From NCBI GenBank assembly GCA_012270965.1, contig JAAXHJ010000041.1, positions 21,169 to 85,168 on the forward strand: 64,000 nt of DNA, in the 5' to 3' direction. Source of the stretch: Candidatus Palauibacter poriticola (GTDB lineage Bacteria; Gemmatimonadota; Gemmatimonadetes; Palauibacterales; Palauibacteraceae). Positions 8,730 to 64,000 of this stretch are shown here, piece by piece. The notes below the pieces were generated by a model, which ran no database searches, was not told the DNA's origin, and was given only the letters and a program-made list of their open reading frames with translations. The translations under genes were made by a program, and so were the position numbers. How positions within the stretch are numbered: the stretch's first letter is position 1; every line of letters starts with the position of its first letter.

Positions 8730-11023
8730 TGTCCCGGCCTCGGCCCCGGCCTTTGCCCCGGCCTCTGCCCCGTCCTCTGCCCCGGCCTCTGGATCGTCGA
8801 CACCGCCTGGGCGAGCCCTCGCGCGGCGCGCGTCCCGGCGTGGCGCCGCCGGCCGAGGAGGATGAGCGGCATGTCCGTCCTCCGGGCCACCTCCAGGGCG
8901 AAGGCGCCGATCACCGGTTCGCCCCTGCCCCGCCGTTCCATCCCCATCACCACCAGATCATTCTCCCGTCCCAGGCGGGCGACCGGTTCCGCCGGGTCGT
9001 CCGTGTGTTCGAATGCGACTTCATACGGACCCGCGGCCTCATCCCTGGCGAGCTGCCGGATGGTGCGCTCGACCGTTCGTCGCCGGTCGGGGGACGCGTC
9101 GGACGGGAGCGTGCGCAGGAAAGTGACGGAGCGCTCGGAGGAGCGGGCCAGGCTCCCGAGCAGCCGGGCGCGCAGTTCGCTGTGGTCGCGCCGCCCCATC
9201 ACCGGCACGAGAATGCGCCGCGCCTCCTCGATCCGCCAGCGGGGCGGCGCCCGCACAATGACGACGTCCGCCGCAATCCGGGAGATGAGGCCTTCGAGCC
9301 GTGCCTCCATCCGGGGTTCCGTGAGCCGCGGCAGCCCCACCAGCACCGTTTCGCACGTGCGGTTGTTGGCCACGCGGGCGATCTCGCCCCAAACGTCCGA
9401 CGCAACCGTGAACAGCGTCTCCGGCTGAACCGCGTCCTCGAGACCGCGCCCCACCGACTCGCCCAGGATGTCCTTGGCGTCCCGCACCACCGCGTCGATG
9501 GAGACGGCGGGCCGTCCCTCCCTCGGGATCACCGACAGCAACAGGATCCGCCCGACGCTCGGGGCGCGCACGGTCGTGGCCACGTCCACGAGGCTCGCCG
9601 CGCTGGCGGGATTGCCGATCGGCACGAGGACAAGCGGGCTGCGGCCGCGGAGGCGGGCGAGATCGGGGTCCCGCGCCTGAGCGCTCGCGTCGGCGAGACG
9701 GGCGCCGGGCGCGAGCAGGATCAGGTAGAGCCCCACGCCGAGGCCGAGCCACAGCACCACGACCCGTCCCGCCTCCGGTACGGCGATGGCTTGGAAGATC
9801 GCCAGCCCCAGGCAGAGGGCCGCGCCAGCCGACGGGAGCGCCGCCGGGCGCGGGTGGCCCGAGCGCCTCCGCGCGAGCATCGCGGCCCAATGGACCATCG
9901 CGAACGAGATGAGGAAGATGAGGCTGGACGCGGCGCCGGCCGAGGCGACGTTCCCCACCGCGACCGCGATCAGCGTCATCATCGCACCCGTCGCGACCAC
10001 GGCGATGGCCGGCGTCCCCGTCCGCCCCCGCATCTCTCCCACCCGGCGGGGCAGCGTCCGGTCGCGCGCCATCGAGAACGCGACGCGCGAGGCCCCGAAC
10101 AGGTTCGCCTGCAGCGCGGACAGCATCGACAGGAGTCCGGCCCCGATGACGAGCCAGTAGCCGGCCGATCCCATGAAGCGCTCGGCCGCCTCGGCCACGA
10201 CCCCCTCCGGGTTTGCCCGCGCCGCGGCCTGAATCCCCTCGGCAGGCGCGCCGACGGTCGCGACGACGACGAGCAGGGGGATGTAGACGACGAGCGCGAT
10301 CCCGAGCGACAGATACATCGCGCGCGGCACCGTGTGGCGCGAGTCCCGGACTTCCCCGCCCACGGCGGCGATGAGGTCGAACCCCTGCAGGGCGATGAAG
10401 GTGTAGCCCATGGCCTGCAGCAGACCGAGCGAACCCTCGGGAGTGAACGGACTCAGCCGCCGGAGCGCCGCTCCGGGTTCGCCCATGATCCACGCCGCGA
10501 AGCCCCCGGCGATGAGGACCGCGAAGACGATCACCTTGCCGATCGTGGCCGCGTTCCCCCCGCCGGCGGTGCGCTGAACGAGGAGGAGCGAGTAGACGGC
10601 GACGGCCCCGACCGCGAGGGCGACCTGCGTGCGGCCCTGTCCGATCCAGTCCCACGAGGCACCCAGCACAGGGGCCAAACGCTGCAGGCCTTCGACGAGG
10701 AAGGCGGCGAAGCCCAGCGCGTAGAGGACGCCCGCCACGATGGAGGCGAACCAGACCACCCATCCCACCACGAAGGCGACCTCGATCGAGAGCACCTTCT
10801 TCGCGTACGTGTAGATGCCGCCGGACTCCGGGAAGCGACGCGCGAGGCGGGCGAAGCTCATCGCGGTGAGGAACGCGATCCCCCCGTTGAGGCCGAAGGC
10901 GAGGATGGCGGCGGGGCCCGCGGTCGCGAAGGCGACGCCCGCGAGCGCGAGGACCCCGCCCCCCACGATCGCACCGACTCCCAGCGCCGTCGCGCCGTAG
11001 AGCCCCAGATGCCGTTCGCTCAT
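8726..11023 (-). CDS. APC-family amino acid permease with C-terminal universal stress protein domains
   Basis: MSERHLGLYGATALGVGAIVGGGVLALAGVAFA start of APC permeases, then UspA-like segments (LILVPVMGRRDHSELRARLLGSLA). Stop overlaps downstream start by 4 nt. Confidence 0.85.
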   Translation of the reverse strand: MSERHLGLYGATALGVGAIVGGGVLALAGVAFATAGPAAILAFGLNGGIAFLTAMSFARLARRFPESGGIYTYAKKVLSIEVAFVVGWVVWFASIVAGVLYALGFAAFLVEGLQRLAPVLGASWDWIGQGRTQVALAVGAVAVYSLLLVQRTAGGGNAATIGKVIVFAVLIAGGFAAWIMGEPGAALRRLSPFTPEGSLGLLQAMGYTFIALQGFDLIAAVGGEVRDSRHTVPRAMYLSLGIALVVYIPLLVVVATVGAPAEGIQAAARANPEGVVAEAAERFMGSAGYWLVIGAGLLSMLSALQANLFGASRVAFSMARDRTLPRRVGEMRGRTGTPAIAVVATGAMMTLIAVAVGNVASAGAASSLIFLISFAMVHWAAMLARRRSGHPRPAALPSAGAALCLGLAIFQAIAVPEAGRVVVLWLGLGVGLYLILLAPGARLADASAQARDPDLARLRGRSPLVLVPIGNPASAASLVDVATTVRAPSVGRILLLSVIPREGRPAVSIDAVVRDAKDILGESVGRGLEDAVQPETLFTVASDVWGEIARVANNRTCETVLVGLPRLTEPRMEARLEGLISRIAADVVIVRAPPRWRIEEARRILVPVMGRRDHSELRARLLGSLARSSERSVTFLRTLPSDASPDRRRTVERTIRQLARDEAAGPYEVAFEHTDDPAEPVARLGRENDLVVMGMERRGRGEPVIGAFALEVARRTDMPLILLGRRRHAGTRAARGLAQAVSTIQRPGQRTGQRPGQRPGPRPGQ
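8744..8791 (+). repeat. 12-bp tandem repeat x4 at the 3' end of the APC/USP gene
   Basis: CCCCGGCCTTTG CCCCGGCCTCTG CCCCGTCCTCTG CCCCGGCCTCTG. Confidence 0.85.
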
Positions 11024-28092: not shown

Positions 28093-29319
28093 CTAATCGA
28101 GGGAGCCCGCCTCGCGCAGCATCTCCCTTGAAATCACGACCTTGAGGATCTCGCTCGTCCCCTCGCCGATCTCGGTGATCTTCGCGTCACGCATCATCCG
28201 TTCGACCGGATACTCGCGCGAATAGCCGTAGCCGCCGTGCAACTGCACCGCCATCGTCGTCACGTCCATCGCCGTCTCCGAGGCGAAGAGCTTGGCCATC
28301 GCGGCCTCCTTCTTGTGCCTCTCCCCCGCCATCCGGAGGCGCGCGGCGTGGTGCATCATGAGCCGCGCCGCGTGAATGCGCGTCTGCGCCTCGGCCAGCA
28401 TGAAGCGGACGCCCTGGAAGTCGTGGATCTTCTTGCTGAACTGCTTCCGCTCGCCGGTGTAGCGGACCGTCTCGTCGAGCGCCCCCTGGGCGATCCCGAT
28501 CGCGTGGGCGGCGATCCCGACCCGTCCGCCGTCCAACGTGTCGAGGAAGATGGGGAACCCCCGGTCCACTTCGCCGAGCACGTTCTCCTCCGGGACCTCC
28601 ACATCCTCCAGCGTGAGTTCGCGCGTATCGGAAGCGTTCCAGCCCAGCTTGCGCAGCTTCTGTCCGGCGCTGAACCCCGGCATCGGGTCGAGGTCCGAAG
28701 AGTGACCGAACCCGACGCGCGCGGCGTCTTCGAGATCGCACGTCTCCTTGGTGAGGACGAACGCCGTGATGCCGCGCGAACCCTTCTCGGGCGAGGTGAG
28801 GGCGCCGACGACGAACACCTCGCCCACCCCCCCGTGCGTGATCCACGTCTTGCGGCCGTTGAGAATCCACCGGTCCCCGGCCTTCCGGGCCGTCGTCCGC
28901 ATGCCGCCCGCGTCGGAACCCGATCCCGGCTCCGTGAGCCCGAATCCGCCGAGCACGCGGCCGCTCGCGAGGGGCCGGAGGAAGCGTTCCTTCTGCGCCT
29001 CCGTCCCCCAGCGCGCGATCGGGGTCGCGGCCAGACTCGTGTGCGCCCCGATCATGATCGAATGGCTCGCGTCCACGCGGGCGAGTTCCTCCACGGCGAT
29101 CGACGCGGCGAGCAGATCCATGCCGGCGCCGCCCATCCCCTCCTCGAAGGGAATCCCGAACAGTCCGAGTTCGGACATGAGGGCGCCGGTGTCCCACGGA
29201 AAATCCTCCGACTCGTCGTAGCGGGCGGCCACCGGAGCGATCTCCGCCTCGGCGAACTCCCGCACCATCTCGCGGATCATCTCGTGGTGGTCTTCCAAGT
29301 AGAAACTCGGGTCTCCCAT
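28093..29319 (-). CDS. Acyl-CoA dehydrogenase
   Basis: GGFGLTEPGSGSDAGGMRTTA and QLHGGYGYSREYPVERMMRDAKITEIGEGTSEI. Confidence 0.93.
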   Translation of the reverse strand: MGDPSFYLEDHHEMIREMVREFAEAEIAPVAARYDESEDFPWDTGALMSELGLFGIPFEEGMGGAGMDLLAASIAVEELARVDASHSIMIGAHTSLAATPIARWGTEAQKERFLRPLASGRVLGGFGLTEPGSGSDAGGMRTTARKAGDRWILNGRKTWITHGGVGEVFVVGALTSPEKGSRGITAFVLTKETCDLEDAARVGFGHSSDLDPMPGFSAGQKLRKLGWNASDTRELTLEDVEVPEENVLGEVDRGFPIFLDTLDGGRVGIAAHAIGIAQGALDETVRYTGERKQFSKKIHDFQGVRFMLAEAQTRIHAARLMMHHAARLRMAGERHKKEAAMAKLFASETAMDVTTMAVQLHGGYGYSREYPVERMMRDAKITEIGEGTSEILKVVISREMLREAGSLD

Positions 29320-51553: not shown

Positions 51554-51778
51554 ATGAACATGGCGCAGATGAAGCACTACAGGCGGAAGCTCGCCTTCGA
51601 GACCGACGCGTGGGACCTCCAGGAAGCGCTGGACGGGCACGATCCCGTCGTCGTGATCGATGGCCGCTCCGCCGAGGCTTACGCCCGCGAACACATCCCC
51701 GGCGCCGTGAACCTCCCGCATCGGGAGATCAGCGCCGAGACGACGGCGTCGCTGGACCGGTCCATGCTCTACGTCTGC
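51554..51778 (+). pseudogene. Rhodanese-like protein, N-terminal half
   Basis: MKHYRRKLAFETDAWDLQEALDGHDPVVVIDGRSAEAYAREHIPGAVNLPHREISAETTASLDRSMLYVC, then switches to DUF1156-like sequence. Confidence 0.8.
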
Positions 51779-52517
51779 CTACTACGCCAATCTCCCCGAC
51801 GCGCTCAAGAAGATCCGGGAGGGCGGCGTGGGTCCGGTGGACATGGCTCAGGCCTTGATCGGTCCCGGGTTGGGTATCTTCACGGCGGCGTCCAGAGTGC
51901 TGGAGCCAGACGACACGCCGATGACAGTGCGGGCGGCGATCGCGCTCATCAATCAGGTTCGGGCCGAAATCTCGGGCGAGGAGGCAACCGGCTACGACCG
52001 GGAAACGCAGTTCTGCATCGACTGGTTCGAGGCGTTCGGGATGGAAGAAGGCACGTCCGGTGACGCGATCAACATGGCCCAAGGGTACGACATCGGGATC
52101 GACGCTCTTCAGAAGGCCGGTGTGGTCCGCGCCCACGGCGGGAAGACAAGGTTGCTCCGGCGCGAAGAGATGCCGGACGACTGGAGCCCGGGAACCGACA
52201 AGCGCCTGACCGACTGGGAGTGCGCGCAGCATCTCGCGCGCGTAATGGAATTGCCGGACGGGGGCATGGACGCGGCGGCGCGGCTCTACTCGGCGATGGG
52301 GGCCGAGCGTGTCGACAATGCCCGCATGTTGGCTTACCGCCTCTACGACATCTGCGAGCGGACGAACCGGGCCGCAGAAGCGCAGGTTCGGAACGCGCTG
52401 GCGCAGGAATGGCCGGCGCTGGACGCGGCGCTCATCCGCTTCGAGGAGGAGTCTGGGCGGCATCCCTCCGATAGCCAGGGCAGTCTCGGGCAAGGACTGG
52501 CCGGATGGGACGACTGA
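51777..52517 (+). pseudogene. C-terminal fragment of DUF1156-type adenine-specific DNA methylase (anti-phage associated)
   Basis: AYYANLPDALKKIREGGVGPVDMAQALIGPGLGIFTAASRVLEPDDTPMTVRAAIALINQV...TDWECAQHLARVMEL...LAYRLYDICERTNRAAEAQVRNALAQEWPAL; no N-terminus present. Confidence 0.7.
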
Positions 52518-52542
52518 CGCCTACTCGAATGGAGACGAAGCG

Positions 52543-52870
52543 ATGAGCACGAAGCCCGAAAACCCCGCGCTTGCAGCCAAGAAGCGTGTCGATAGCGGGC
52601 TGGAGGCGCTCGGCGTCACGCTCGGGTTCTATGTCGAACGGAACATGAAGAAGCGCTACGGCGGCCGTTGGCGGCAGTACGCGAGCCGCGCGGGCGGAGG
52701 CCGAGCCGATGGCGAACTGGATGTGTACGCGCAGTTGAAGACCGTGCTCGACCACTGGCGGGAAGTGTTTTCGGACGACGCCCGGCTGAGGAAGGCCCGG
52801 AGCTACGTCTCGCTCGCGATGGATGCCCGCAACAGCGCGGCACACTTCGCCGGTCGGATGGGCACGGCGC
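52543..52870 (+). pseudogene. N-terminal Swt1-type HEPN fragment of a DUF499-like protein
   Basis: ALAAKKRVDSGLEALGVTLGFYVERNMKKRYGGRWRQYASRAGG..DVYAQLKTVLDHWREVFSDDARLRKARSYVSLAMDARNSAAHFAGRMG, then frame/family change. Confidence 0.62.
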
Positions 52871-52879
52871 GCGGGCAGG

Positions 52880-53160
52880 GTTGGCCCGAGCGGAAGGCCA
52901 GTGTCCGACCGGACGATCGAGCACGACCTGAAGTTTCTGATGGCCGTGCTCAACTGGACCGCCAAGTCGAGGGACGAGCGGGGCGGTCTGCTCCTCGACT
53001 CCAACCCGCTGAGGGGGCTCAGGACGCCTGCGGAGAAGAACCCCACGCGGGTGGTATTGGCCGAGGAGGAATACCAAGCGCTTATCGGCGTGTCTGGGCA
53101 GATCGACTGGCGGTTCCAGTCGCGCTGGTGTTCGCTCACGAGACAGGGGCAAGAGGGAGT
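52880..53160 (+). pseudogene. Tyrosine-type site-specific integrase fragment
   Basis: SDRTIEHDLKFLMAVLNWTAKSRDERGGLLLDSNPLRGLRTPAEKNPTRVVLAEEEYQALI, then VALVFAHETGARG in another frame; no catalytic C-terminus. Confidence 0.65.
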
Positions 53161-53187
53161 ACCAGCGGCTGGCTTCTCGCGCGGCCG

Positions 53188-54477
53188 CTAGGGCGCTTGG
53201 GAGCCGCGCGGCAGGGTCCCGGGGTCGGGGCCCGGTCCACGGGCGGAGCGCGGCAGCGTGTCGACTTCGACGTCGGCCGCGGCGGCGGCGCGGGGAAGCG
53301 CGGCTCGCGCCTCGAGCTTCCCGATCGCGGCGGAGACGGCCTGGCCCGTGGCGTTCCGCGTGCCGACGCTACGCTGCACTTCGCGCAGCCGGGGGAGCGC
53401 CTCCACGGCGTGGATCTCGGCGAGCGCGTGTGCCGCGTGCGCGCCGGAGGAGCCCTCGAGCGCGCGGCCGAGCGCCCCGATGATCTCCCCCCTATATCCG
53501 CGGTCGTACGCCTTTAGACGCCCGGAATCGCCGCCGAGCGCCGCGCTCACGGCGTCGACCAATTCTCCCTTGCCCAATTGCCGCAAGGCGTCGGCGACCC
53601 CGTCGCGGAATCGCAGCCCGGCGGTCCTCCGCGCGTCGCCGAGCAGAGGGATGAGCGGCCCGATCGCAGCGGGGTGCCGAATCCCGGCGAGCGCTTCGAC
53701 CGCCCGGGATCCGAGCACCGTGTCTTCGTCCCAGAGTACGGAAGCGAGGGCCGGAATCGCCGCGGAATCCCCCAGCCGCCCGAGTTCGGCGGCCGCGTCG
53801 CGTCGCGGGCCGTCTCCCTCCCAGAGGAGGTACTTGTCCCGGATCCGGCCTCCGGGCGCGCCCAGGCGCCGGATGTGGATCGGGACGTCGTCGGGCCGCG
53901 ACCTTCCGTCGTAGCAGAGGTGCCGCAGGATATCGCCGAAGAGATCGAACAGGGTCCGGAGCTGCGCGAGGTCCTTGATCGCCCTCTCGGCCCGGAAGTG
54001 GAGTTCGTCCACCCCGTCGGGGAACTTGCTGAACCACCCGTCATGACCCTTGACGGACAGATGAATCTTGGGCTGGGCCTGGATGCCTGCGCGGATCTTC
54101 CGGTTGTTGAAGAGGCGTCTCACGCGGCGCGGCGCATCGCCCTTGATCACGAAATCCCGGTCGAACCGGGGATGGCCGACATCGATGTCCTGCAGGCCCA
54201 TCGCCTTCCCGAACCCGCTCAGGAGGCCCGCCCGGTAGATCTCGAATCTGAAGCCCTCGGGATTGAAATAGGGCGCGCGGATCCTCGTGAACGTCTGGTT
54301 CGTCTTGCCGTCGCCCGACGTGAACGTGTCGAGCGTGATGATCCAGTCGCCCGTGCGGGCCTGGACGGCGAACGGACTGAAGAGTCCTCCCTCGTGAAAC
54401 GTCCCGTCCACCTCGCCGGCAAGCTGCCGCCAGACATCTCTCCGGCTCGGTCCGAACAGGGCTTTGAGGAAGTTCAT
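53188..54477 (-). CDS. HEAT-repeat-containing protein
   Basis: AAAELGRLGDSAAIPALASVLWDEDTVLGSRAVEALAGIRHPAAIGPLIPLLGD repeats. Confidence 0.75.
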   Translation of the reverse strand: MNFLKALFGPSRRDVWRQLAGEVDGTFHEGGLFSPFAVQARTGDWIITLDTFTSGDGKTNQTFTRIRAPYFNPEGFRFEIYRAGLLSGFGKAMGLQDIDVGHPRFDRDFVIKGDAPRRVRRLFNNRKIRAGIQAQPKIHLSVKGHDGWFSKFPDGVDELHFRAERAIKDLAQLRTLFDLFGDILRHLCYDGRSRPDDVPIHIRRLGAPGGRIRDKYLLWEGDGPRRDAAAELGRLGDSAAIPALASVLWDEDTVLGSRAVEALAGIRHPAAIGPLIPLLGDARRTAGLRFRDGVADALRQLGKGELVDAVSAALGGDSGRLKAYDRGYRGEIIGALGRALEGSSGAHAAHALAEIHAVEALPRLREVQRSVGTRNATGQAVSAAIGKLEARAALPRAAAAADVEVDTLPRSARGPGPDPGTLPRGSQAP

Positions 54478-56066
54478 CGCAATCTCACCACGGGGTGCTT
54501 GACCTTGAGGTCGGTCTTCCGGCGCAGGTCATGTACGGTTACACACAGCCAGCGGTTCTCGTCCACGGAATACGTCACGCGCAGCCGGGGCGCCGTGCCC
54601 TGCCCGGCGGGGTTGAGCGGCAGGGCGGGGTCCGCCTCGTTGAGGCAGAGGCAGAAGGCCCGTTCGCCCACGGTTCGGGGCACGAAGTAATGGGAGCCGT
54701 TGCTGCGCTCGGTCCAGTCGATCGGGCGTCCGGCCACGCGCCCGACCTCGCAGATGAAGAGATTGATGTGCCGCTGGCCATCGAAACCGGGGGCGTAGTA
54801 GCGCGTCGCGAAGTTGTCGACGGTCGGGAAACACGTTCCACCGGGGATGAGCAGCTCGTACTCCGCCTCGGCGTCATCGTCGGGCAGGACGCGAAGCGCG
54901 TAGTCGTGGTAGATGAAGTCCTCGACGTGCGCGCCGCCCGCGAAGATGCACGCGCCCCTCGCGACGGCGGCGAAGGGGAGCCACTCCCGCACCTTCTCCC
55001 GGCCGAGCACGTCGCCCACGACGTTGCGCACGTCCGGGAGGAGCGTCGACCCACCCTCGAGGATCACATCATCGATGCCGTCGGCGAGAATGCCGTGGCG
55101 AGTGCGCAGCTCGGCGAGCAGCGCGCCGAGCAGTTCGCGGATGCGGGCGTGGAGGCCGTTCGCGGCGAGAATGTCGCTCAGGACGGGATAGTCCAGCTTC
55201 CCGTACGATTCGTTGCGGAAGGTGAAGTCGCCCTCGTTCCCCGCGCTCGCGAGCAGCTTCACGCGCTCGGCCTCCCAGCGGAGCGCGACCTCCCATTCGG
55301 GCCAGTCGTGTAGGGCCGCGGGAACGAACCGCTCCAGAATCCAACCGTCGACGTCGTCGCCGCCAAGTTCCACCGCCTGCTTGGCCAGCACCTCCGCGCG
55401 CCCGGTCTCCACGGTCCGCGCGCCGTGGGTCCTCACGACGGCGGCTTCCATCGATCCGCCGCCGAAGTCGAACGCGACGAGGGTGGTGGGGCGTCCGACA
55501 TCCACGCCGTAGCCCAGCGCGGCCGCGACCGGCTCGTCGAGCGTGCGGAACACGATCCCGGCCGGTTTGCGCCGAAGTCGCGCCCACATGCGCGCCCACC
55601 ACCCGCGGCGCTTCAGGCGGCGGATGATCGCCTGCAGCTCGGCGCGGTACGTCTCGTAGAAGCCGCTCGGCGTGGCGATCGTGATGTCGGCGACCTCTTC
55701 GTCGAATCGCGCCTCGAGGGTGCGGATGACCTCCCTCAGGAAGAGCGCCGCGATGTCCTGAGCGGTGAAGGCTCTCCCGCCGGCGCGCGCCAGGGCCCGG
55801 CCGCTCTCCGTGCCGAGGTAGCGCTTGAAGCCGCGCGCGAAGCCGGTGGCCTGTCCGTCCCAGTTATAGGTGACGGCCGCCTGCCCGATGAGGACTTCCT
55901 CCCCATCCCGGTCCATGACGCACACGCACGAAGGCATGACCGGCGTCTGCGTGACGGGCTCCAGCTTGACGAGATCCGGCAGGTTCACGATGTGTGGCCG
56001 GCCGGACCGGTCTTCGCAGATGGTGGTGTTGGACGTGCCGAGATCGATGGCCCAATGGGTCGACAT
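54474..56066 (-). CDS. Hsp70-family (DnaK-like) protein
   Basis: WAIDLGTSNTTICEDRSG, TPSGFYETYRAELQAI, DEPVAAALGYG..FDFGGGSMEAAVV, VILEGGSTLLPDVRNVV; 4-nt overlap with HEAT gene. Confidence 0.85.
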   Translation of the reverse strand: MSTHWAIDLGTSNTTICEDRSGRPHIVNLPDLVKLEPVTQTPVMPSCVCVMDRDGEEVLIGQAAVTYNWDGQATGFARGFKRYLGTESGRALARAGGRAFTAQDIAALFLREVIRTLEARFDEEVADITIATPSGFYETYRAELQAIIRRLKRRGWWARMWARLRRKPAGIVFRTLDEPVAAALGYGVDVGRPTTLVAFDFGGGSMEAAVVRTHGARTVETGRAEVLAKQAVELGGDDVDGWILERFVPAALHDWPEWEVALRWEAERVKLLASAGNEGDFTFRNESYGKLDYPVLSDILAANGLHARIRELLGALLAELRTRHGILADGIDDVILEGGSTLLPDVRNVVGDVLGREKVREWLPFAAVARGACIFAGGAHVEDFIYHDYALRVLPDDDAEAEYELLIPGGTCFPTVDNFATRYYAPGFDGQRHINLFICEVGRVAGRPIDWTERSNGSHYFVPRTVGERAFCLCLNEADPALPLNPAGQGTAPRLRVTYSVDENRWLCVTVHDLRRKTDLKVKHPVVRLR

Positions 56067-56084
56067 GGGCCGAACTTAAGGGGC

Positions 56085-57242
56085 CTACCGGGAACGGTGG
56101 AAGAATACGGTTTCGGCCAGGTGCCGGGACACCTTCCAGCTCAGGAGTCCGGCTTGCAGCGCGCGGGCCACCGGAAGGTGGTCGAACCCCCAGCGCGCGG
56201 CGCGTTTCAGGGCGTGGTTCGGATACGCGCGGCGGAGGATGGGGCCCGGATGGGGGCCGCCGTTCAGGTATTCGGCGATCGCATCCCCGGCAAGCTTGCC
56301 GAAGCGGTAGGCTTGGTGGATGCCGCCGGCGGTCAGCGGCGACACCATGCCGGCCGCGTCTCCGACGAGCAGCATCCGCTCCGCGTGGAAGTTCCTCAGC
56401 CGGCCGCCGATCGGGATGACGCCGCCGCGCTTCTCCAGCACCCGTCTCCCGGACAATCCGAACAGATCGTCGATCTTCTCGCTGAAGCGGCGCAGGTCCG
56501 CGCGCCGGTCGCGGTGAAGCGCCAGCCCCACCTGCGTGACCCCGACGCCGGGCACGACCCACCCGATGTAGCCCGGCGCGCACTCCGGATCGACGAAGCA
56601 GTGCAGACAGTCGCCGTCGGCGCTCCGGAGCTCGTACTCCCACTCCACGCCCTTGAGGAGTCGGCGGTTCCGGTCCAGCCCGAAGCTCTCGGCCACCTTG
56701 GAGCGCGCCCCATCGGCCCCGACGAGGAAACAGCAGGTCACGCCGGACGCCGCGCCGGAGCCCACGAGCGTCAGCGGCATCGAGCCTCGGGTCCCGCGCG
56801 ATCCCGCCGACCTCGCGCCCGGCCCCGCGGACCTCGCGCCCGGCCCCGCCGACGCCACGCCCTCGTAGGGAGAGCCGAACCGGATCTCGGCCCCCGAGCG
56901 GCGCGTCTCGCTGACGATGTGGCGGAGAAGTCCCGCCGTGTCCGTCGCCATGAAGAAGTAGGAGTCCCGTTCCAGTTCGACGAAGCGGTGGTTCGGATCG
57001 TAGACTCGGACGCGCCGGATGCGGCGGACGAGCGACGCCGGGGCGGCCCACTCCTCCCACGCCTCCTTCACGAGGATGCCCGTCGTGTGGATGCGCTCGC
57101 CCGGCTCCGATTGCCGCTCCAGGACGAGAACGGAGAGACCGCGCTCCGCCGCCCGCCGCGCGCAGGCAAGCCCGGCGAACCCGGCCCCCGCCACGACGAG
57201 ATCGTAGTCCGCGGCCTCGCGGGACGCCCCGAGTGCCGTCAA
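56085..57242 (-). CDS. Geranylgeranyl reductase-family FAD-dependent oxidoreductase
   Basis: YDLVVAGAGFAGLACARRAAERGLSVLVLER; LLVGDAAGMVSPLTAGGIHQAYRFGKLAG. Confidence 0.87.
   Translation of the reverse strand: MTALGASREAADYDLVVAGAGFAGLACARRAAERGLSVLVLERQSEPGERIHTTGILVKEAWEEWAAPASLVRRIRRVRVYDPNHRFVELERDSYFFMATDTAGLLRHIVSETRRSGAEIRFGSPYEGVASAGPGARSAGPGARSAGSRGTRGSMPLTLVGSGAASGVTCCFLVGADGARSKVAESFGLDRNRRLLKGVEWEYELRSADGDCLHCFVDPECAPGYIGWVVPGVGVTQVGLALHRDRRADLRRFSEKIDDLFGLSGRRVLEKRGGVIPIGGRLRNFHAERMLLVGDAAGMVSPLTAGGIHQAYRFGKLAGDAIAEYLNGGPHPGPILRRAYPNHALKRAARWGFDHLPVARALQAGLLSWKVSRHLAETVFFHRSR
56809..56850 (+). repeat. 21-bp tandem repeat inside the FAD-reductase gene
   Basis: GACCTCGCGCCCGGCCCCGCG GACCTCGCGCCCGGCCCCGCC. 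Confidence 0.8.
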
Positions 57243-57293
57243 GGTCCGCTTCGGTGGCTCAGCAGACGTTCACGCGGAAACGCCGAGGTGGGC

Positions 57294-57461
57294 TCAGCAG
57301 CCGCAGGCGATCGCCGTTGCGGCGCGCGCTTCGGTGCCCTCGGTCGCGTAACCGTCGCGCTTCCACCAGTCGAGACCGCCCATCAGTTCGCGCACCTCGA
57401 AGCCGAGGCCGAGGAGCTTGAGCGCCGTCTTGGTCGAGGCATTGCAGCCGATCCCGTCGCA
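57294..57461 (-). pseudogene. Rhodanese-like protein, C-terminal half
   Basis: CDGIGCNASTKTALKLLGLGFEVRELMGGLDWWKRDGYATEGTEARAATAIACGC; begins where the 51554..51778 half ends. Confidence 0.78.
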
Positions 57462-57695
57462 GTTGCGCATCAACAAAGGGACAAATCACGACGGGGAATC
57501 GTGTAACTACTTATGGGACTGCACGATCTGCGTTCCCTGCCGTTGTATTGGACCTTGCTGGACCGGGCCGTAAAAGCGGGAAAACCGGAGTCGATTGGTG
57601 GGACTCCCGCGACTCGTCTGAGGCACCAGTCTTGACCGCTCCGGCCATCTCCTCTGGCGTTCAATGGCGCGGCCTCCCGGTGTCCGGTCCCGACC

Positions 57696-58970
57696 CTAGG
57701 ATGAGGGAACGAGGTTCACGAGCCGAAGCACCCTCACGAAGGGTATGCCCAGTTCGTTCGTCTCGATGTACGCCATCAGGCCATCGGGGCCGAAGGCATC
57801 CGGGATCCGGAAGTCATCGGCGAGCAGAGTCCCCAAGTAGTTGCCCGAAGGGGTGTGGACATCGGTTGGACCTCTGGACACGCCATCCATGCCCGAGCGT
57901 GTGACCCAGACCCGGTCCTCGGCGTCAACGGCCATTTCCTCGATCACCGGCACCTCGGAGGCGAATTCCGTCTCCGAGGCCATTGCCTCCATGAGGGATG
58001 ACGCTAAGCCCTCGCCCTCTGAACTCGACACGCCGGGACCCATGACGATAGCCCGCGTACCCGCGCCGCCCCGTTGGCGCTCTCGGGCAGCTTCCTGCAT
58101 TTCCGGGGTCACCGTCAGCGGTTCAATCAATCTCTCCAAAGCGGCGTCGAGGGATCCGTCGGGTTGCAGGATTTTGACCCGATAGCCCACGGAATCGACG
58201 ATGGCAACGCGCCCGTCGGAGAGCGCGGCACCCAACAGCGGTGGCCCGAACGCCAACTCCCGCGGCAGAATCCCGGAGGGTAGCGCCACCTCCAGATCGC
58301 CCAAGCGGATCGAAATACTTCCACCCTGCTCAGGGCTCCCGGCCGGGGGTTCGTATGCGCGATAGAGTTCCTCGGTTCCCAGCCCCAAGGCATGGATGTC
58401 GAACGTGCGGATCTGGAGGCGTCGCAGCAGTAGTCGGCTACCGGGAAGGCTGCCCAAGAGTGTGGCGACGGATCGGACTGAACTGGTCACGACCGTACCT
58501 GTCGTCGCGCCATCCGAGCGTAATGTCCGAGGCGGTTCGCCGATGGCGGTCTGCTCCAGAAAGTTCCCGTTCTCGTCGAAGATGAGCAGGGCATTGTGCC
58601 CGACATCGTTTACGGCCAAGCGGTTGTCGCGGAGTACCGCGACGCTGCCGACGATGCGCAGTTCTCCGGGTCCGTCGCCGCGCCGAGAGACATGATGGCG
58701 TAGTTGCCCATCGGGACCGGCGACCACGATGCGACCCTGTCTGCGGTCGACCAGGATCAGGTTACCCGCGCCGTCGAAGTGTACCTCCGAGATTTCCGAG
58801 AAGGCCTGCCATTCCTCTTCCGGCTGGGCAGCGCCAAGAGTGAAGACCTCCTCGGTCGTCGCGGTCATCGGGATGTCCGGTTCGGCCACTACCGGACCGG
58901 AGTCCTCACCGCAACCCAAGGCTCCCGCGATCAATACACACGGAAGCGGAAGGGCTCGGGTCGTCATCAT
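57696..58970 (-). CDS. 6-bladed beta-propeller-like lipoprotein (second copy)
   Basis: Lipobox IAGALGC; EVHFDGAGNLILVDRRQGRIVVAGPDGQLRHHVSRRGDGPGELRIVGSVAVLRDNRLAVND. Confidence 0.75.
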   Translation of the reverse strand: MMTTRALPLPCVLIAGALGCGEDSGPVVAEPDIPMTATTEEVFTLGAAQPEEEWQAFSEISEVHFDGAGNLILVDRRQGRIVVAGPDGQLRHHVSRRGDGPGELRIVGSVAVLRDNRLAVNDVGHNALLIFDENGNFLEQTAIGEPPRTLRSDGATTGTVVTSSVRSVATLLGSLPGSRLLLRRLQIRTFDIHALGLGTEELYRAYEPPAGSPEQGGSISIRLGDLEVALPSGILPRELAFGPPLLGAALSDGRVAIVDSVGYRVKILQPDGSLDAALERLIEPLTVTPEMQEAARERQRGGAGTRAIVMGPGVSSSEGEGLASSLMEAMASETEFASEVPVIEEMAVDAEDRVWVTRSGMDGVSRGPTDVHTPSGNYLGTLLADDFRIPDAFGPDGLMAYIETNELGIPFVRVLRLVNLVPSS

Positions 58971-59396
58971 TCGGCGCGCTCGGTAGTTGGTGGGAAAAGG
59001 CAGAAGTCGAATCATAGGTGTACGGGCTGGCCTTGCCAATCGGGCGAGCCGGCACCGACGACGACGGATCGCCCTCCGCCGAGGCGCATGATCGGCCTTG
59101 TTCTCGTCCAAGAGCGGATGCAGCGCGGTGGTCCGACCCCATTCATGGGTGCGGCCCACGGGCTCGTGGGGCGCTGCTAAGGAAGTTGAGCCAGCGCACG
59201 CCACGTTCAACGTTGGCTGGCGAGGGGGCTGCGACCCCTCCGACCCCAGCTTTTTCGCTCCGATGTCGGAGCATCGGATCGGGCCGGGCGCAGCCGCTGC
59301 CCGAACCGCCGCGAACGCGCGCGACGTGGTATCTTCTTTGAATTGCCGGACGGCAGCCTCAGGGCGGAGGCATGGCCGAATCGCTGGGAAGACACG

Positions 59397-62324
59397 ATGG
59401 CCGGACCGAACAAGAAGCTGGTTGCCGCCGTGGAGGCGTACTTCGCCGATCGTGGGCGCGTGCGCGCATCGGGCGGAGCGACGGCGGAGCGTTCGTACTA
59501 TCCGCCGCTGGAGCGCTTGTTGCGCACGGTCGGGGCCACGCTCAAACCCAAGGTGTTCTGCGTTCAGGAACCGGCGGATCACGGGGTCGGCCATCCCGAC
59601 CTCGCCCTGTACACGGCGAGTCAGGTTCAGAGGGGTCGCCCGAGTCCAGGGCAGGTTCCCGGGCGTGGCGTCGTCGAGGTCAAGGGCGTTGGCGACGATG
59701 TCCGGTCAACCGCGGTACACGAGCAGGTAGAGCGCTACTGGGGCCGCTACCGCCTGGTCCTAGTCACGAACCTGCTGAGCTTCCAGTTGGTCGGCGCGGC
59801 CGACTCGAACGGCTCCGCGAAGCTCGAAACTTTCACGCTGGCCGAAGGTGTCGAGAACTTCTGGCGCAAGGTGGAAACGCCTCGTGCCTTCGCCCGCGAG
59901 GTGGGCGCGAGGCTGGGAGAGTATCTCGCCCGAGCACTTTCGCACCGGGCCGTACTGGCCGAGCCGAAGGACTTGGCGTGGCTGCTGGCTTCCTACGCCC
60001 GCGACGGCTTGGCCCGAGTCGAGGCGGCCGGGTACACGCCGACCGAGGTGGTCCGCTACATGGTGGCCCGCGTGGACAAGGCGCTGAAGGACGATCTCGG
60101 GATCCCAGCGGGGCTCGCAGCCGAGAATGTCTATGTGCTGGACCCGTGCTGCGGGACTGGGGCCTATCTGGCAGAAGTCCTGCGCCGCATCTCCCTGAAT
60201 CTTGGGGAACAGGGTCTCGGGGCGCTCGCGGGCGAGGCGGTGAGGAAAGCAGCGACCGAGCGGGTGTTCGGGTTCGAGATCATGCCCGCGCCGTTCGTGG
60301 TTGCCCATTTGCAGGTCGGCCTCACGATGCAGAGTCTGGGCGCGCCGCTGCCGGAGGACGGATCGGAGCGCGCCGGGGTGTTTCTCACCAACGCGCTGAC
60401 CGGCTGGGAGCCGCGCACGACCAAGCCCTTGCCGTTCCCGGAGCTTGAGGAGGAGCGCGACCTCGCCGAATCGGTGAAGCGGGACATCCCGATCCTCGTG
60501 ATCCTCGGCAACCCGCCCTACAACGGGTTCGCTGGCATGGCGGTGGACGAGGAGCGCGAACTCTCGGAAGCCTATCGTACCACAAACCGGGTGCAGGAGC
60601 CTACAGGCCAAGGCCTGAACGATCTCTACGTCCGGTTTTTCCGAATGGCGGAGCGGCGCATCGCCGAGAAGACCGGTCGAGGCGTGGTCTGCTTCATTTC
60701 GAACTACTCATGGCTCGACGGGCTTTCCTTCACCGGGATGCGGGAGCGGTATCTCGAAGCGTTCGACGCGATCCGGATCGACTGCCTGAACGGCGACAAG
60801 TACAAGACGGGCAAGGTTGCGCCGGACGGCTCGCCCGACCCGAGCATCTTCTCGACCGAGGGAGATCCGGTCGGCATCCAAGTGGGCACCGCCATAGCAA
60901 CGTTGGTGCGCAAGGTGGACCACGAACCCGCCGAAGCGGTCGGGTTCCGGCACTTGTGGGGGCAGTCCAAAGCGACGGAGTTGACCGCCACGGCCGACGC
61001 GGAAGCGGACACGCTGTACTCCGAAGTCGCACCGCTGCTGCCGCTGGGCCTGCCGTTCGCGGAGGCCGCGGGGAGTCCCGATTGGTTCGACTGGCCCGCG
61101 CTGCCCGACCTGTTCCCGGTTTCCTTTCCGGGCGTCAAGACGAGCCGCGACGGGTTCCTGGTGGACACCGACCTCGACCGCCTCCGGGCGCGCGTAGGAG
61201 ACTACTTCGACCCGGCATTGAGCCATGAGGAAATCGCGCGACGCCATCCGAGGGTCATGAAGTCCACGGCGCGTTTCGATGCCCAAGCCGTGCGCGACGC
61301 GCTGCTAAGGCGCGGCGGGCCGGACGAGTCCGGGTTCATCCGCTTCGCCTACCGGCCATTCGACACCCGGTGGGCCTACTGGGAGAAGGAAACGAAGCTG
61401 CTCGACGAGAAGCGTGCCGACTACAGGCCCCATGTGTTCAACGGCAACAGGTGGCTGTCCTCCGCCCAGCATCTGCGGAAGGGAGCCGGTGAGCCGCAGA
61501 CTTGCTGTACGAGTGACATGGGGTCTCTGCATCTGATCGAGCGCGGGGCGCTGATGTTTCCGGCATGGCTTCGCGAGGAAGGATTGGGAGCATCTTCTGG
61601 GACTGACCGCCGCGCCAATCTCTCGGGGAAGGCGCAACGGTATCTCGACCGTCTAAGCCTCGGTGTCGAGGATCTGTTCCACCACGTGCTCGCCACCCTT
61701 CACGATCCAGCGTATCGGGAGGCCAACGCGGGAGCGCTGCGCATGGAATGGCCGCGCATTCCGCTGCCCGGCTGGCCGGACGGAGAGGCGGACGGGGCAG
61801 CGCAAGCTCTCAAGCCTTCGGCAGCGCGCGGGCGCACGCTGGCCGCGCTGCTCGACTCGGAACAGGCTGTGCCAAGCGGGACCGGGACGCCCCTGCGTCC
61901 CGAGATCGCGGTGCCGGACACCATGACGGGACGCTACATGGCTGGCGCGGACTTCGCCGTGACCGCGGGCTGGGGCCACTTCGGGGCAGGCGACGCCGTG
62001 ATGCCCGGAAGGGGCCGCATCGTCGAACGCGCCTATCGACCGGACGAGCGCGCCGCGTTGGCGGAACACGTTGCCGTCCTTGGTGAGACGACCTTCGACG
62101 TGTACCTGAACGGCGAAGCCTTCTGGCGCAACGTCCCCTCCGGCCTCTGGGACTACACGCTCGGCGGCTACCAAGTGCTCAAGAAGTGGTTGTCTTACCG
62201 GGAGAGTGCGGTCCTGGGCCGGAGCCTTCTACCAGAGGAGGTCCAGCACTTCGCCGACACCGCGCGGCGCATTGGCGCGTTGCTGATCGCAACATCCAAC
62301 CGACCCGAGAGGAGTTCACCATGA
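59397..62324 (+). CDS. Type ISP-like restriction-modification enzyme / N6-adenine DNA methylase
   Basis: VYVLDPCCGTGAYLAEVLRRI (SAM motif), ILGNPPYNGFAGM (NPPY), FIRFAYRPFDTRWAYWEKETKLLDEKRADY; ~975 aa. Confidence 0.85.
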   Translation: MAGPNKKLVAAVEAYFADRGRVRASGGATAERSYYPPLERLLRTVGATLKPKVFCVQEPADHGVGHPDLALYTASQVQRGRPSPGQVPGRGVVEVKGVGDDVRSTAVHEQVERYWGRYRLVLVTNLLSFQLVGAADSNGSAKLETFTLAEGVENFWRKVETPRAFAREVGARLGEYLARALSHRAVLAEPKDLAWLLASYARDGLARVEAAGYTPTEVVRYMVARVDKALKDDLGIPAGLAAENVYVLDPCCGTGAYLAEVLRRISLNLGEQGLGALAGEAVRKAATERVFGFEIMPAPFVVAHLQVGLTMQSLGAPLPEDGSERAGVFLTNALTGWEPRTTKPLPFPELEEERDLAESVKRDIPILVILGNPPYNGFAGMAVDEERELSEAYRTTNRVQEPTGQGLNDLYVRFFRMAERRIAEKTGRGVVCFISNYSWLDGLSFTGMRERYLEAFDAIRIDCLNGDKYKTGKVAPDGSPDPSIFSTEGDPVGIQVGTAIATLVRKVDHEPAEAVGFRHLWGQSKATELTATADAEADTLYSEVAPLLPLGLPFAEAAGSPDWFDWPALPDLFPVSFPGVKTSRDGFLVDTDLDRLRARVGDYFDPALSHEEIARRHPRVMKSTARFDAQAVRDALLRRGGPDESGFIRFAYRPFDTRWAYWEKETKLLDEKRADYRPHVFNGNRWLSSAQHLRKGAGEPQTCCTSDMGSLHLIERGALMFPAWLREEGLGASSGTDRRANLSGKAQRYLDRLSLGVEDLFHHVLATLHDPAYREANAGALRMEWPRIPLPGWPDGEADGAAQALKPSAARGRTLAALLDSEQAVPSGTGTPLRPEIAVPDTMTGRYMAGADFAVTAGWGHFGAGDAVMPGRGRIVERAYRPDERAALAEHVAVLGETTFDVYLNGEAFWRNVPSGLWDYTLGGYQVLKKWLSYRESAVLGRSLLPEEVQHFADTARRIGALLIATSNRPERSSP

Positions 62325-62533
62325 CCGATAAGCTCATCGACAGAAACCCCGACGTGTTGGGCGGCACGCCCGTGTTCTCGGGGACCAGGGTTCCCGTGCG
62401 TATCCTGATGGAGCACCTCGAGGCGGGCGACCGGCTCGACGACTTTCTGGACGACTACCCCACGGTCACGAGGGAGCAGGCCGTCGGCGTGCTCGAACGG
62501 GCCACGGCGCAGCTGGTGGGCGATGCCCGATGA
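62321..62533 (+). CDS. DUF433 family protein (antitoxin-like)
   Basis: RNPDVLGGTPVFSGTRVPVRILMEHLEAGDRLDDFLDDYPTVTREQA. Confidence 0.92.
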   Translation: MTDKLIDRNPDVLGGTPVFSGTRVPVRILMEHLEAGDRLDDFLDDYPTVTREQAVGVLERATAQLVGDAR

Positions 62534-62856
62534 AGGTGCTGTTGGACGAATCCGTTCCAAGGCGGCTCGCGGCTGAGTTTCCCGAGTCGTTCGGGTCGCG
62601 CACGGTTCAGCAGATGGGCTGGGCCGGGTGCTCGAACGGAGAGTTGCTGCGGCTTGCGGCGGACCACGGGTTCGGTGTCCTCGTTACGGTGGACCAAGGG
62701 TTCGCGTATCAGCAGAGCGTCCGCAGTCTTCCGATCCCCGTCGTCATCATGATCGCCGGACGCACCCGATTGCAGGAATTGCGTCCCCTCGTCCCGGAAG
62801 TGATCGCGGTTCTCTCGGGCGATCTCGGGCAGCGAATCCACCGTGTCGTGGCCTGA
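62530..62856 (+). CDS. DUF5615 PIN-like toxin candidate
   Basis: MKVLLDESVPRRLAAEF...LLRLAADHGFGVLVTVDQGFAYQQ; ATGA overlap with DUF433 gene. Confidence 0.88.
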   Translation: MKVLLDESVPRRLAAEFPESFGSRTVQQMGWAGCSNGELLRLAADHGFGVLVTVDQGFAYQQSVRSLPIPVVIMIAGRTRLQELRPLVPEVIAVLSGDLGQRIHRVVA

Positions 62857-62967
62857 CATTGACCCTGCCCGACTACCGTTGAGTATTCCAAGTTGAATGC
62901 AATCAATCAGCCTCCGACTCATCCGCGCCCACCGGGCGCGGGCCTGCCTCCAGAAAGAGTAACGGAC

Positions 62968-63630
62968 ATGGGCAGCTTACAGGATGCCGTCATGCAGTAC
63001 GTGGAAGGGGAACTGAAGAAGGATCCCCGCGTGAAGAACGCCACCCTGTTCGCGGTGGCTCGCGAGATCGACGAGTCGGTCGGGGAGCTGACGCTGCAAC
63101 AGTTTCACGCCAAGTATCGGCTACCGGCGATCCGGAGCATAGCGCCCCAAGAGCGGCCCGCGCGGCAGCCGAAAGCTGACCCCTCGCCAGCGTCTTTGAG
63201 TGATGGTGCCGCCGTCATGGAGTACGTGGAGCGGACGCTTGAGGCGAACCCCGGAATCGCGAACGCGGACCTGTTCGCGGGCGCCCGCGAGATCGACCCC
63301 TCCGTAGGGCAACTCACGGGTCGGCAGTTTCACGCGAAGTATCCCCTCCAAGTGAAGGCCCGGCTCGCAAGGGCCTCCGCGCCTGAGCCCAAGACGCCGC
63401 CGGAACCGGAGGTCGCGACGGCTGAGGAGCCCATCGCGCCGGACGTGTCGGCGGCGGCCGGTGACCCGGAGGCCCCGCCGACCGGGGCGGGCGACCCGCT
63501 CACGGTTCGCCGCCTACTGCTCGATCTGTCGAAGGAACTCGTGAACGCGGAAAGCAAGGCGGAAGTGATCGAGGTCATGGCCCGGCTGGACAACTACGTG
63601 GCCGAGATCATGGAGGCGGCGCGAGGCTGA
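62968..63630 (+). CDS. Hypothetical protein with duplicated ~50-aa domain
   Basis: AVMQYVEGELKKDPRVKNATLFAVAREIDESVGELTLQQFHAKYRLP and AVMEYVERTLEANPGIANADLFAGAREIDPSVGQLTGRQFHAKYPLQ; C-terminal coiled segment. Confidence 0.72.
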   Translation: MGSLQDAVMQYVEGELKKDPRVKNATLFAVAREIDESVGELTLQQFHAKYRLPAIRSIAPQERPARQPKADPSPASLSDGAAVMEYVERTLEANPGIANADLFAGAREIDPSVGQLTGRQFHAKYPLQVKARLARASAPEPKTPPEPEVATAEEPIAPDVSAAAGDPEAPPTGAGDPLTVRRLLLDLSKELVNAESKAEVIEVMARLDNYVAEIMEAARG

Positions 63631-63791: not shown

Positions 63792-64000
63792 GTGGCTACT
63801 CCGAACCCCGACGAAAGTCGGGCCGTTCTTCGAGCCGACGTGTCGGCTGCATCGCAGGCCTTGGTCGCGCCGCCACGTTGGGAGCTAAACGCGCACGGGC
63901 GCAGTTCGCCCGTGAAGGCGCTCGCCCAAGCCGCGACAGTGGCGGAGAAGCCTTCGCTCCGCGATACCTCGTTCGCGCAGATCGTGCAGTCCATCAATCG
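63792..64000 (+). CDS. Hypothetical protein, 3' truncated by window end
   Basis: GTG start, open frame to the end: ATPNPDESRAVLRADVSAASQALVAPPRWELNAHGRSSPVKALAQ... Confidence 0.45.
   Translation, partial: MATPNPDESRAVLRADVSAASQALVAPPRWELNAHGRSSPVKALAQAATVAEKPSLRDTSFAQIVQSIN

Follow-up and report, generated by a model that had tools for sequence, protein, structure and literature searches.

The window, the whole stretch of 64,000 nucleotides that was analysed, is part of contig 60 of a 94% complete Palauibacter genome (G000) assembled in 99 contigs; the order Palauibacterales is known from sponges and marine samples (PMC10469786). On the plus strand at 51554..51778 lies the 5' half of a rhodanese gene (residues 1-75, product MNMAQ...LDRSMLYVC), joined at a junction termed J1 (51777..51787) to the C-terminal part of a 5'-truncated hmaB (51786..52516), which is followed on the same strand by the N-terminal Swt1-like HEPN part of a truncated Hma-island gene (52543..52860; PF18731 E 3.7e-11) and a fragment of a tyrosine integrase (52861..53148). 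Then come, on the minus strand, a HEAT-repeat gene (53188..54477; PF13646), an Hsp70-like gene (54474..56066; PF00012 E 2.5e-22), a gene for an FAD-dependent oxidoreductase (56085..57242; Pfam FAD_binding_3/Lycopene_cycl) and the 3' half of the rhodanese (57294..57464; residues ~76-131 and the stop, reading (N)CDGIGCNAS...AIACGC). The latter abuts a reversed insertion with restriction-modification (RM) cargo, element A, that extends from 57465 to ~65220 and is followed head-to-tail by element B.

Reverse-complementing exactly 51779..57464 in silico yields an uninterrupted rhodanese ORF of 131 residues, which reads MNMAQ...LYVCNCDGIGCNAS...ACGC with SMLYVCNCDGIGCNAS in the region of the join; moving either end of this interval by 1 bp destroys the frame. 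The sole change at the re-inverted join is Y76N, i.e. an asparagine in place of the Tyr76 of the congeners. In profile searches only the plus half scores by itself against the Pfam Rhodanese domain (PF00581, E 1.2e-7), while the joined protein, with residue 76 entered as the Tyr of the congeners, reaches E 4.1e-16 and is 87-92% identical across residues 1-131 to full-length proteins in five congeners; the DNA of the 5' half is 90-91% identical to that of the closest intact relatives. Sequence comparison thus confirms that the two are halves of one gene and not pieces of two rhodanese subfamilies. This bears out the preliminary description, which had proposed a single split gene that an inversion would make whole. 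It had further stated that the halves meet with neither overlap nor a sizeable gap, which stands with a single residue affected (Tyr76 to Asn), while its start of the minus half at 57461 and its end of the inverted interval at 57465 both have to be shifted to 57464. The best solved relative of the joined protein is 3nhv (E 1.9e-28), and the PF00581 domain with a Cys in the active-site loop places it among the single-domain BH2092-like rhodaneses. The break falls within this loop, a single residue ahead of the first Cys in CDGIGC. Further rhodanese domains exist in the same genome, none of which matches at the threshold used except the two halves themselves. We infer that the rhodanese function has been lost in this genome.

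In five congeners the intact rhodanese and the FAD, Hsp70 and HEAT genes occur in this order on one strand, whereas in the window the latter three and the rhodanese 3' half are opposite in strand to the rhodanese 5' half. The assignment of the three genes to this host block is based on synteny and, for the HEAT gene, on a DNA identity of 87-90% to the intact relatives, in which the order runs along one strand. Because of the one-strand order in the congeners, and because re-inversion restores the ORF, an inversion of host DNA in the window is well supported, and the prediction that it would reunite the rhodanese on the strand of its FAD, Hsp70 and HEAT neighbors agrees with the congeneric arrangement. 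The distal end of the inversion is off the contig, and it is not placed by a gene found 3' of HEAT in the relatives, which is matched only in part in the same genome (on C17 and C59). The block also varies in its spacing: the gap between the Hsp70 and FAD genes (56066-56085) is 18 bp in the window as against several hundred bp to ~2.3 kb in intact congeners. In the interval that separates the FAD gene from the 3' half of the rhodanese, G015 has an ORF of 395 residues (L041 8745-9929) that looks like an AAA ATPase, and G010 has ~1.3 kb of extra DNA (L045 ~9476-10750), both of which are absent from the window.

The position of the break recurs in other genomes. In six further members of the genus (G005, G007-G010 and G015) the rhodanese match ends at residue 79-80 or begins at 75-76, with the right half alone present in G005 and the left half alone in G007 and G008. 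The left junction in these genomes passes from GTCTGCTACTGCG into GCGGAAGC... and reaches a tyrosine integrase (385 aa in G007; Phage_integrase, PF00589 E 6.4e-19) at its 3' end, at the right junction CTACTGCGACGGG comes after a conserved right end, and the core in the rhodanese of the relatives is GCTACTGCG. With the left junction as a DNA query over 198 genomes of the class, the same junction was also recovered in a second family, where six species (G065, G069, G097, G150, G168 and G195) have both halves cut at identical residues, only the right half is present in one (G180), and another six have the rhodanese intact; as this sample was selected by its hits, these counts are not frequencies. 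Identical codons are thereby occupied by element ends, either a left end with a tyrosine integrase or a right end with a conserved box, in 13 other species (six of Palauibacter and seven of the second family), and none of the genomes examined holds an intact together with an interrupted rhodanese. These observations are best explained by the break being an integrase attachment site, approximately GTCTGCTACTGCG, that codes for V-C-Y-C in the active-site loop: the insertion is precise, the relatives retain an intact attB, and a short core is present at both ends (~CTACTGCG in the rhodanese and GCCTACGCG in the element of G010:C22). This left end, with an identical core CTGCTACTGCG, was also found within an unrelated gene (...EFDFCYC) in G058, G091, G118 and G180, which suggests that the integrase recognizes a short DNA core and not the rhodanese gene as such. 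Our literature search found nothing relevant on a rhodanese as attB or on these elements in Palauibacter, and the rhodanese as an integration hotspot is apparently undescribed.

The right end of element A (attR, at the junction J3; 57465..57545, minus strand) is near-identical to the right ends that adjoin the 3' half of the rhodanese in G180, G065 and G097, and contains the box CGCAGATCGTGCAGTCC at 57516-57532, an inverted copy of which is found at 63976-63992. In between are encoded, on the minus strand, a 6-bladed beta-propeller protein (57696..59252; PF17170 E 2.5e-5) and, on the plus strand, a cargo comprising a type IIG/ISP-type restriction-methylase (59397..62324; PF18135 E 9.6e-39, PADLOC REase_MTase_IIG E 4.7e-69), a DUF433 antitoxin-like protein (62321..62533; PF04255 E 5.7e-18) and a DUF5615 PIN-like protein (62530..62856; PF18480 E 5.5e-11), followed by an ORF of 245 aa (62893..63630) that scores above the cut-off of no Pfam family. 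The plus-strand integrase gene of element A starts within the window (63970..64000) and continues past it to ~65113 in four pieces with shifting frames; two ambiguous bases (NN) occur near its start, just past 64000 (L048 3269-3270). The left end of element A directly adjoins that of element B on its right side, at ~65211-65221. The assembly stops 1.1 kb into element B, and the reciprocal junction with the hmaB 5' part is off the contig.

The integrase family to which these elements belong is multi-copy: a genome can have as many as 13-15 matching stretches, of which many are cut by contig ends. The left ends have in common two GGCGGGAATC-like repeats and one CCCGTAAGTTCAA-like stretch, and their targets, as read by eye, include tRNA genes as well as protein-coding sequence. 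An end box of the form [CGT]GCAGATCGTGCAG[TC]CC is typically situated ~70-90 bp inside the right end, with an inverted copy just upstream of the integrase gene; a control search with the reversed pattern came back almost empty. Related elements for which both ends are available measure 4.5-14.4 kb, and the left-end repeats and right-end box are common to them. Among the genes that they carry as cargo are those of type I RM (G010:C22) and, in G007:C6, a relaxase of the MobA/VirD2 type adjoining the integrase (PF03432 E 1.6e-24), whereas no relaxase was recognized in element A. A tyrosine recombinase is encoded both in the G007 copy and, in frameshifted form, in element A. A phylogenetic tree groups the rhodanese-site integrase with that of G007:C27 in a single clade (100/100) and places the G010:C22 integrase, whose core is GCCTACGCG, in another. 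These features are best explained if the elements are small multi-copy integrative elements with RM cargo that would be mobilized by one clade of tyrosine integrases. No intact integrase of the rhodanese-site family was seen in the genome of the window itself, where the copies on contigs C74, C67, C28, C60 and C39 are frameshifted or fragmentary, in contrast to G007, G015 and G046, in which many copies are of full length.

The hmaB fragment at J1 matches positions 762-956 of the 967 in the PADLOC HmaB profile (E 1.5e-56) and is 90-91% identical at the DNA level to hmaB of G009 and G007. The preliminary description had named this neighbor a 5'-truncated DUF1156 fragment; the truncation is real, and the identity can be refined to an HmaB-like methylase of the DUF1156 type. 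Homology with the Hma island of G009 and G007 stops at 52860, where the integrase fragment begins (residues ~135-222 of the rhodanese-site family; 74% identity, DNA identity 73-76%). Of the helicase-methylase-ATPase set of a complete Hma defence system, the locus has only the C-terminal fragment of hmaB, accompanied by the truncated HEPN gene. Queries with PF06634 (DUF1156) and with the 744-aa N-terminal part of hmaB returned nothing in the same genome, an empty result that constitutes weak evidence. Elsewhere, Hma-type genes share contigs with integrases of the rhodanese-site family (G009:C97, L223; G007:C4, L225), and in G007:C4 an end box is located at 29201, after the Hma-type genes; Hma may be a cargo of such elements.

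J1 carries an 11-bp att-like core, GCCTACTACGC, which recurs in inverted form at the junction between elements A and B. Intact relatives of hmaB read CGCCTACGGGCT at the position of the break, close to the GCCTACGCG core flanking G010:C22, an element whose right end resembles that of element B and whose integrase is of a different clade from the rhodanese-site one. The cores of J1/J4 (CTACTACG) and J3 (CAACTGCG) each deviate by one base from the standard CTACTGCG, with small indels adjacent to them.

Taken together, the arrangement is most readily understood as the outcome of an insertion of elements A and B followed by a single integrase crossover between inverted att sites, which would have flipped the interval between them; we assign this reading a probability of about 0.82. 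It would require that, prior to the crossover, an att-like site lay in opposite orientation beside the broken hmaB, downstream of HEAT; the exchange would then have connected the 5' half of the rhodanese, via the common core, to the hmaB 3' part, and the 3' half of the rhodanese to the right end of element A. Two histories, each of two insertions and one inversion crossover and each with one event that joins A-type and B-type cores, yield an identical map. In the first, element A would have entered the rhodanese, splitting the gene before any inversion, and element B would have entered hmaB, whereupon attL of A recombining with attR of B would have inverted 13.4 kb (51779 to ~65220). In the second, A and B would have been inserted in tandem in hmaB, and attR of A recombining with the intact attB of the rhodanese would have inverted 5.7 kb (51779-57464). 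The first is slightly preferred, since the relatives show A-type insertions in the rhodanese with an attR near-identical to that of the window, and the occurrence of an identical core at the A/B junction and at J1 shifts the balance slightly in the same direction. We infer that the crossover was performed by an integrase. As that of element A is frameshifted and no intact family member was seen in the genome, an old event, or one catalyzed in trans, is probable. The mechanism is of a known and ordinary kind, here well documented by comparison. The earlier proposal of a ~5.7-kb inversion footprint with both ends at broken genes was accordingly right about the inverted host DNA and the truncated gene on the left; it missed the integrase att site as the cause and an extent possibly reaching 13.4 kb, and its right end is the right end of element A and not a bare inversion end.

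An inversion by illegitimate breakage, through end-joining or microhomology, with the mobile-element sequences present by coincidence, would fit the short homology at the junctions and the restoration of the frame upon re-inversion. It is nevertheless improbable, as the break coincides with the codons occupied by element ends in the 13 other species, J3 is typical of the right ends of these elements, and the 11-bp core is common to J1 and the A/B junction. A mis-join of the metagenome contig at J1, at J2 (53188) or at J3 might be suspected from the 99 contigs of the genome, the frequent ending of contigs at repeated elements of this integrase family and the two ambiguous bases just past the window; yet in the extended contig no junction-spanning k-mer of more than 11 bp occurs more than once, genomes of another family show a junction near-identical to J3, and a random mis-join would not be expected to produce the att-like core of J1, making this explanation very improbable. 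A live genetic switch, in which the block or element flips or excises to restore the rhodanese in the manner of gene-interrupting prophages, is scarcely credible: precise re-inversion does restore the ORF and the insertion is recurrent and precise across many species, but the assembly contains one orientation only, no intact integrase was seen in the genome, the restored protein would have Y76N, and intact and interrupted forms were found together in no genome examined. It is likewise quite improbable that interruption of the catalytic loop is maintained as a reversible switch in sponge-symbiont Gemmatimonadota, with excision or att flipping restoring the sulfurtransferase under some condition; if true, this would explain the repeated occupation of identical rhodanese codons in two families.

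Insertion of A and B with a subsequent crossover between their att sites is reminiscent of several known systems. SGI1, an integrative mobilizable element for which a secondary attB and tandem arrays have been reported (PMC2297512), is similarly an integrase-borne island with a primary attB in a protein gene, a second site and head-to-tail arrays; unlike the Palauibacter elements, which cut their target gene mid-way and are also associated with an inversion, it targets the 3' end of thdF. The dusA-associated genomic islands (PMC4482086) likewise combine one integrase family and one conserved protein-gene site in many genomes with variable cargo. However, their site is at the 5' end of dusA and a possible restoration of function has been discussed for them, whereas no restoration is seen for the rhodanese, whose 5' half runs into a short foreign tail. 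The integrase of pTN3 from Thermococcus inverts DNA between inverted att sites in vitro (PMC5495485) and thus offers a precedent for inversion by an element-encoded tyrosine recombinase, which in the rhodanese case is deduced from sequence only; the archaeal system differs in that it employs tRNA genes and a longer homology of low specificity in place of short cores in bacterial protein genes. With the integrative and mobilizable elements reviewed in PMC5704250, the relaxase beside the integrase in G007:C6 constitutes a further likeness, and its apparent lack in element A a difference.

An isolated broken gene thereby becomes a mapped integration hotspot, for which ~25 related species present intact, occupied and rearranged states, and its multi-copy integrase family includes clades that use different short cores in the rhodanese, other protein genes and tRNA genes. 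A single group of uncultured symbionts thus offers a comparison of attB choice, tandem accretion and inversion mediated by att sites, and elements at such hotspots may explain why these metagenome assemblies frequently break at such places. In G046, a single-contig genome from another family, a related rhodanese (G046:C1:2868989-2869276; L020) matches residues 1-45 and 81-131 with nothing in between; residues 46-80 have been lost in frame and the loss ends at the att core region, possibly as a scar from an imprecise excision.
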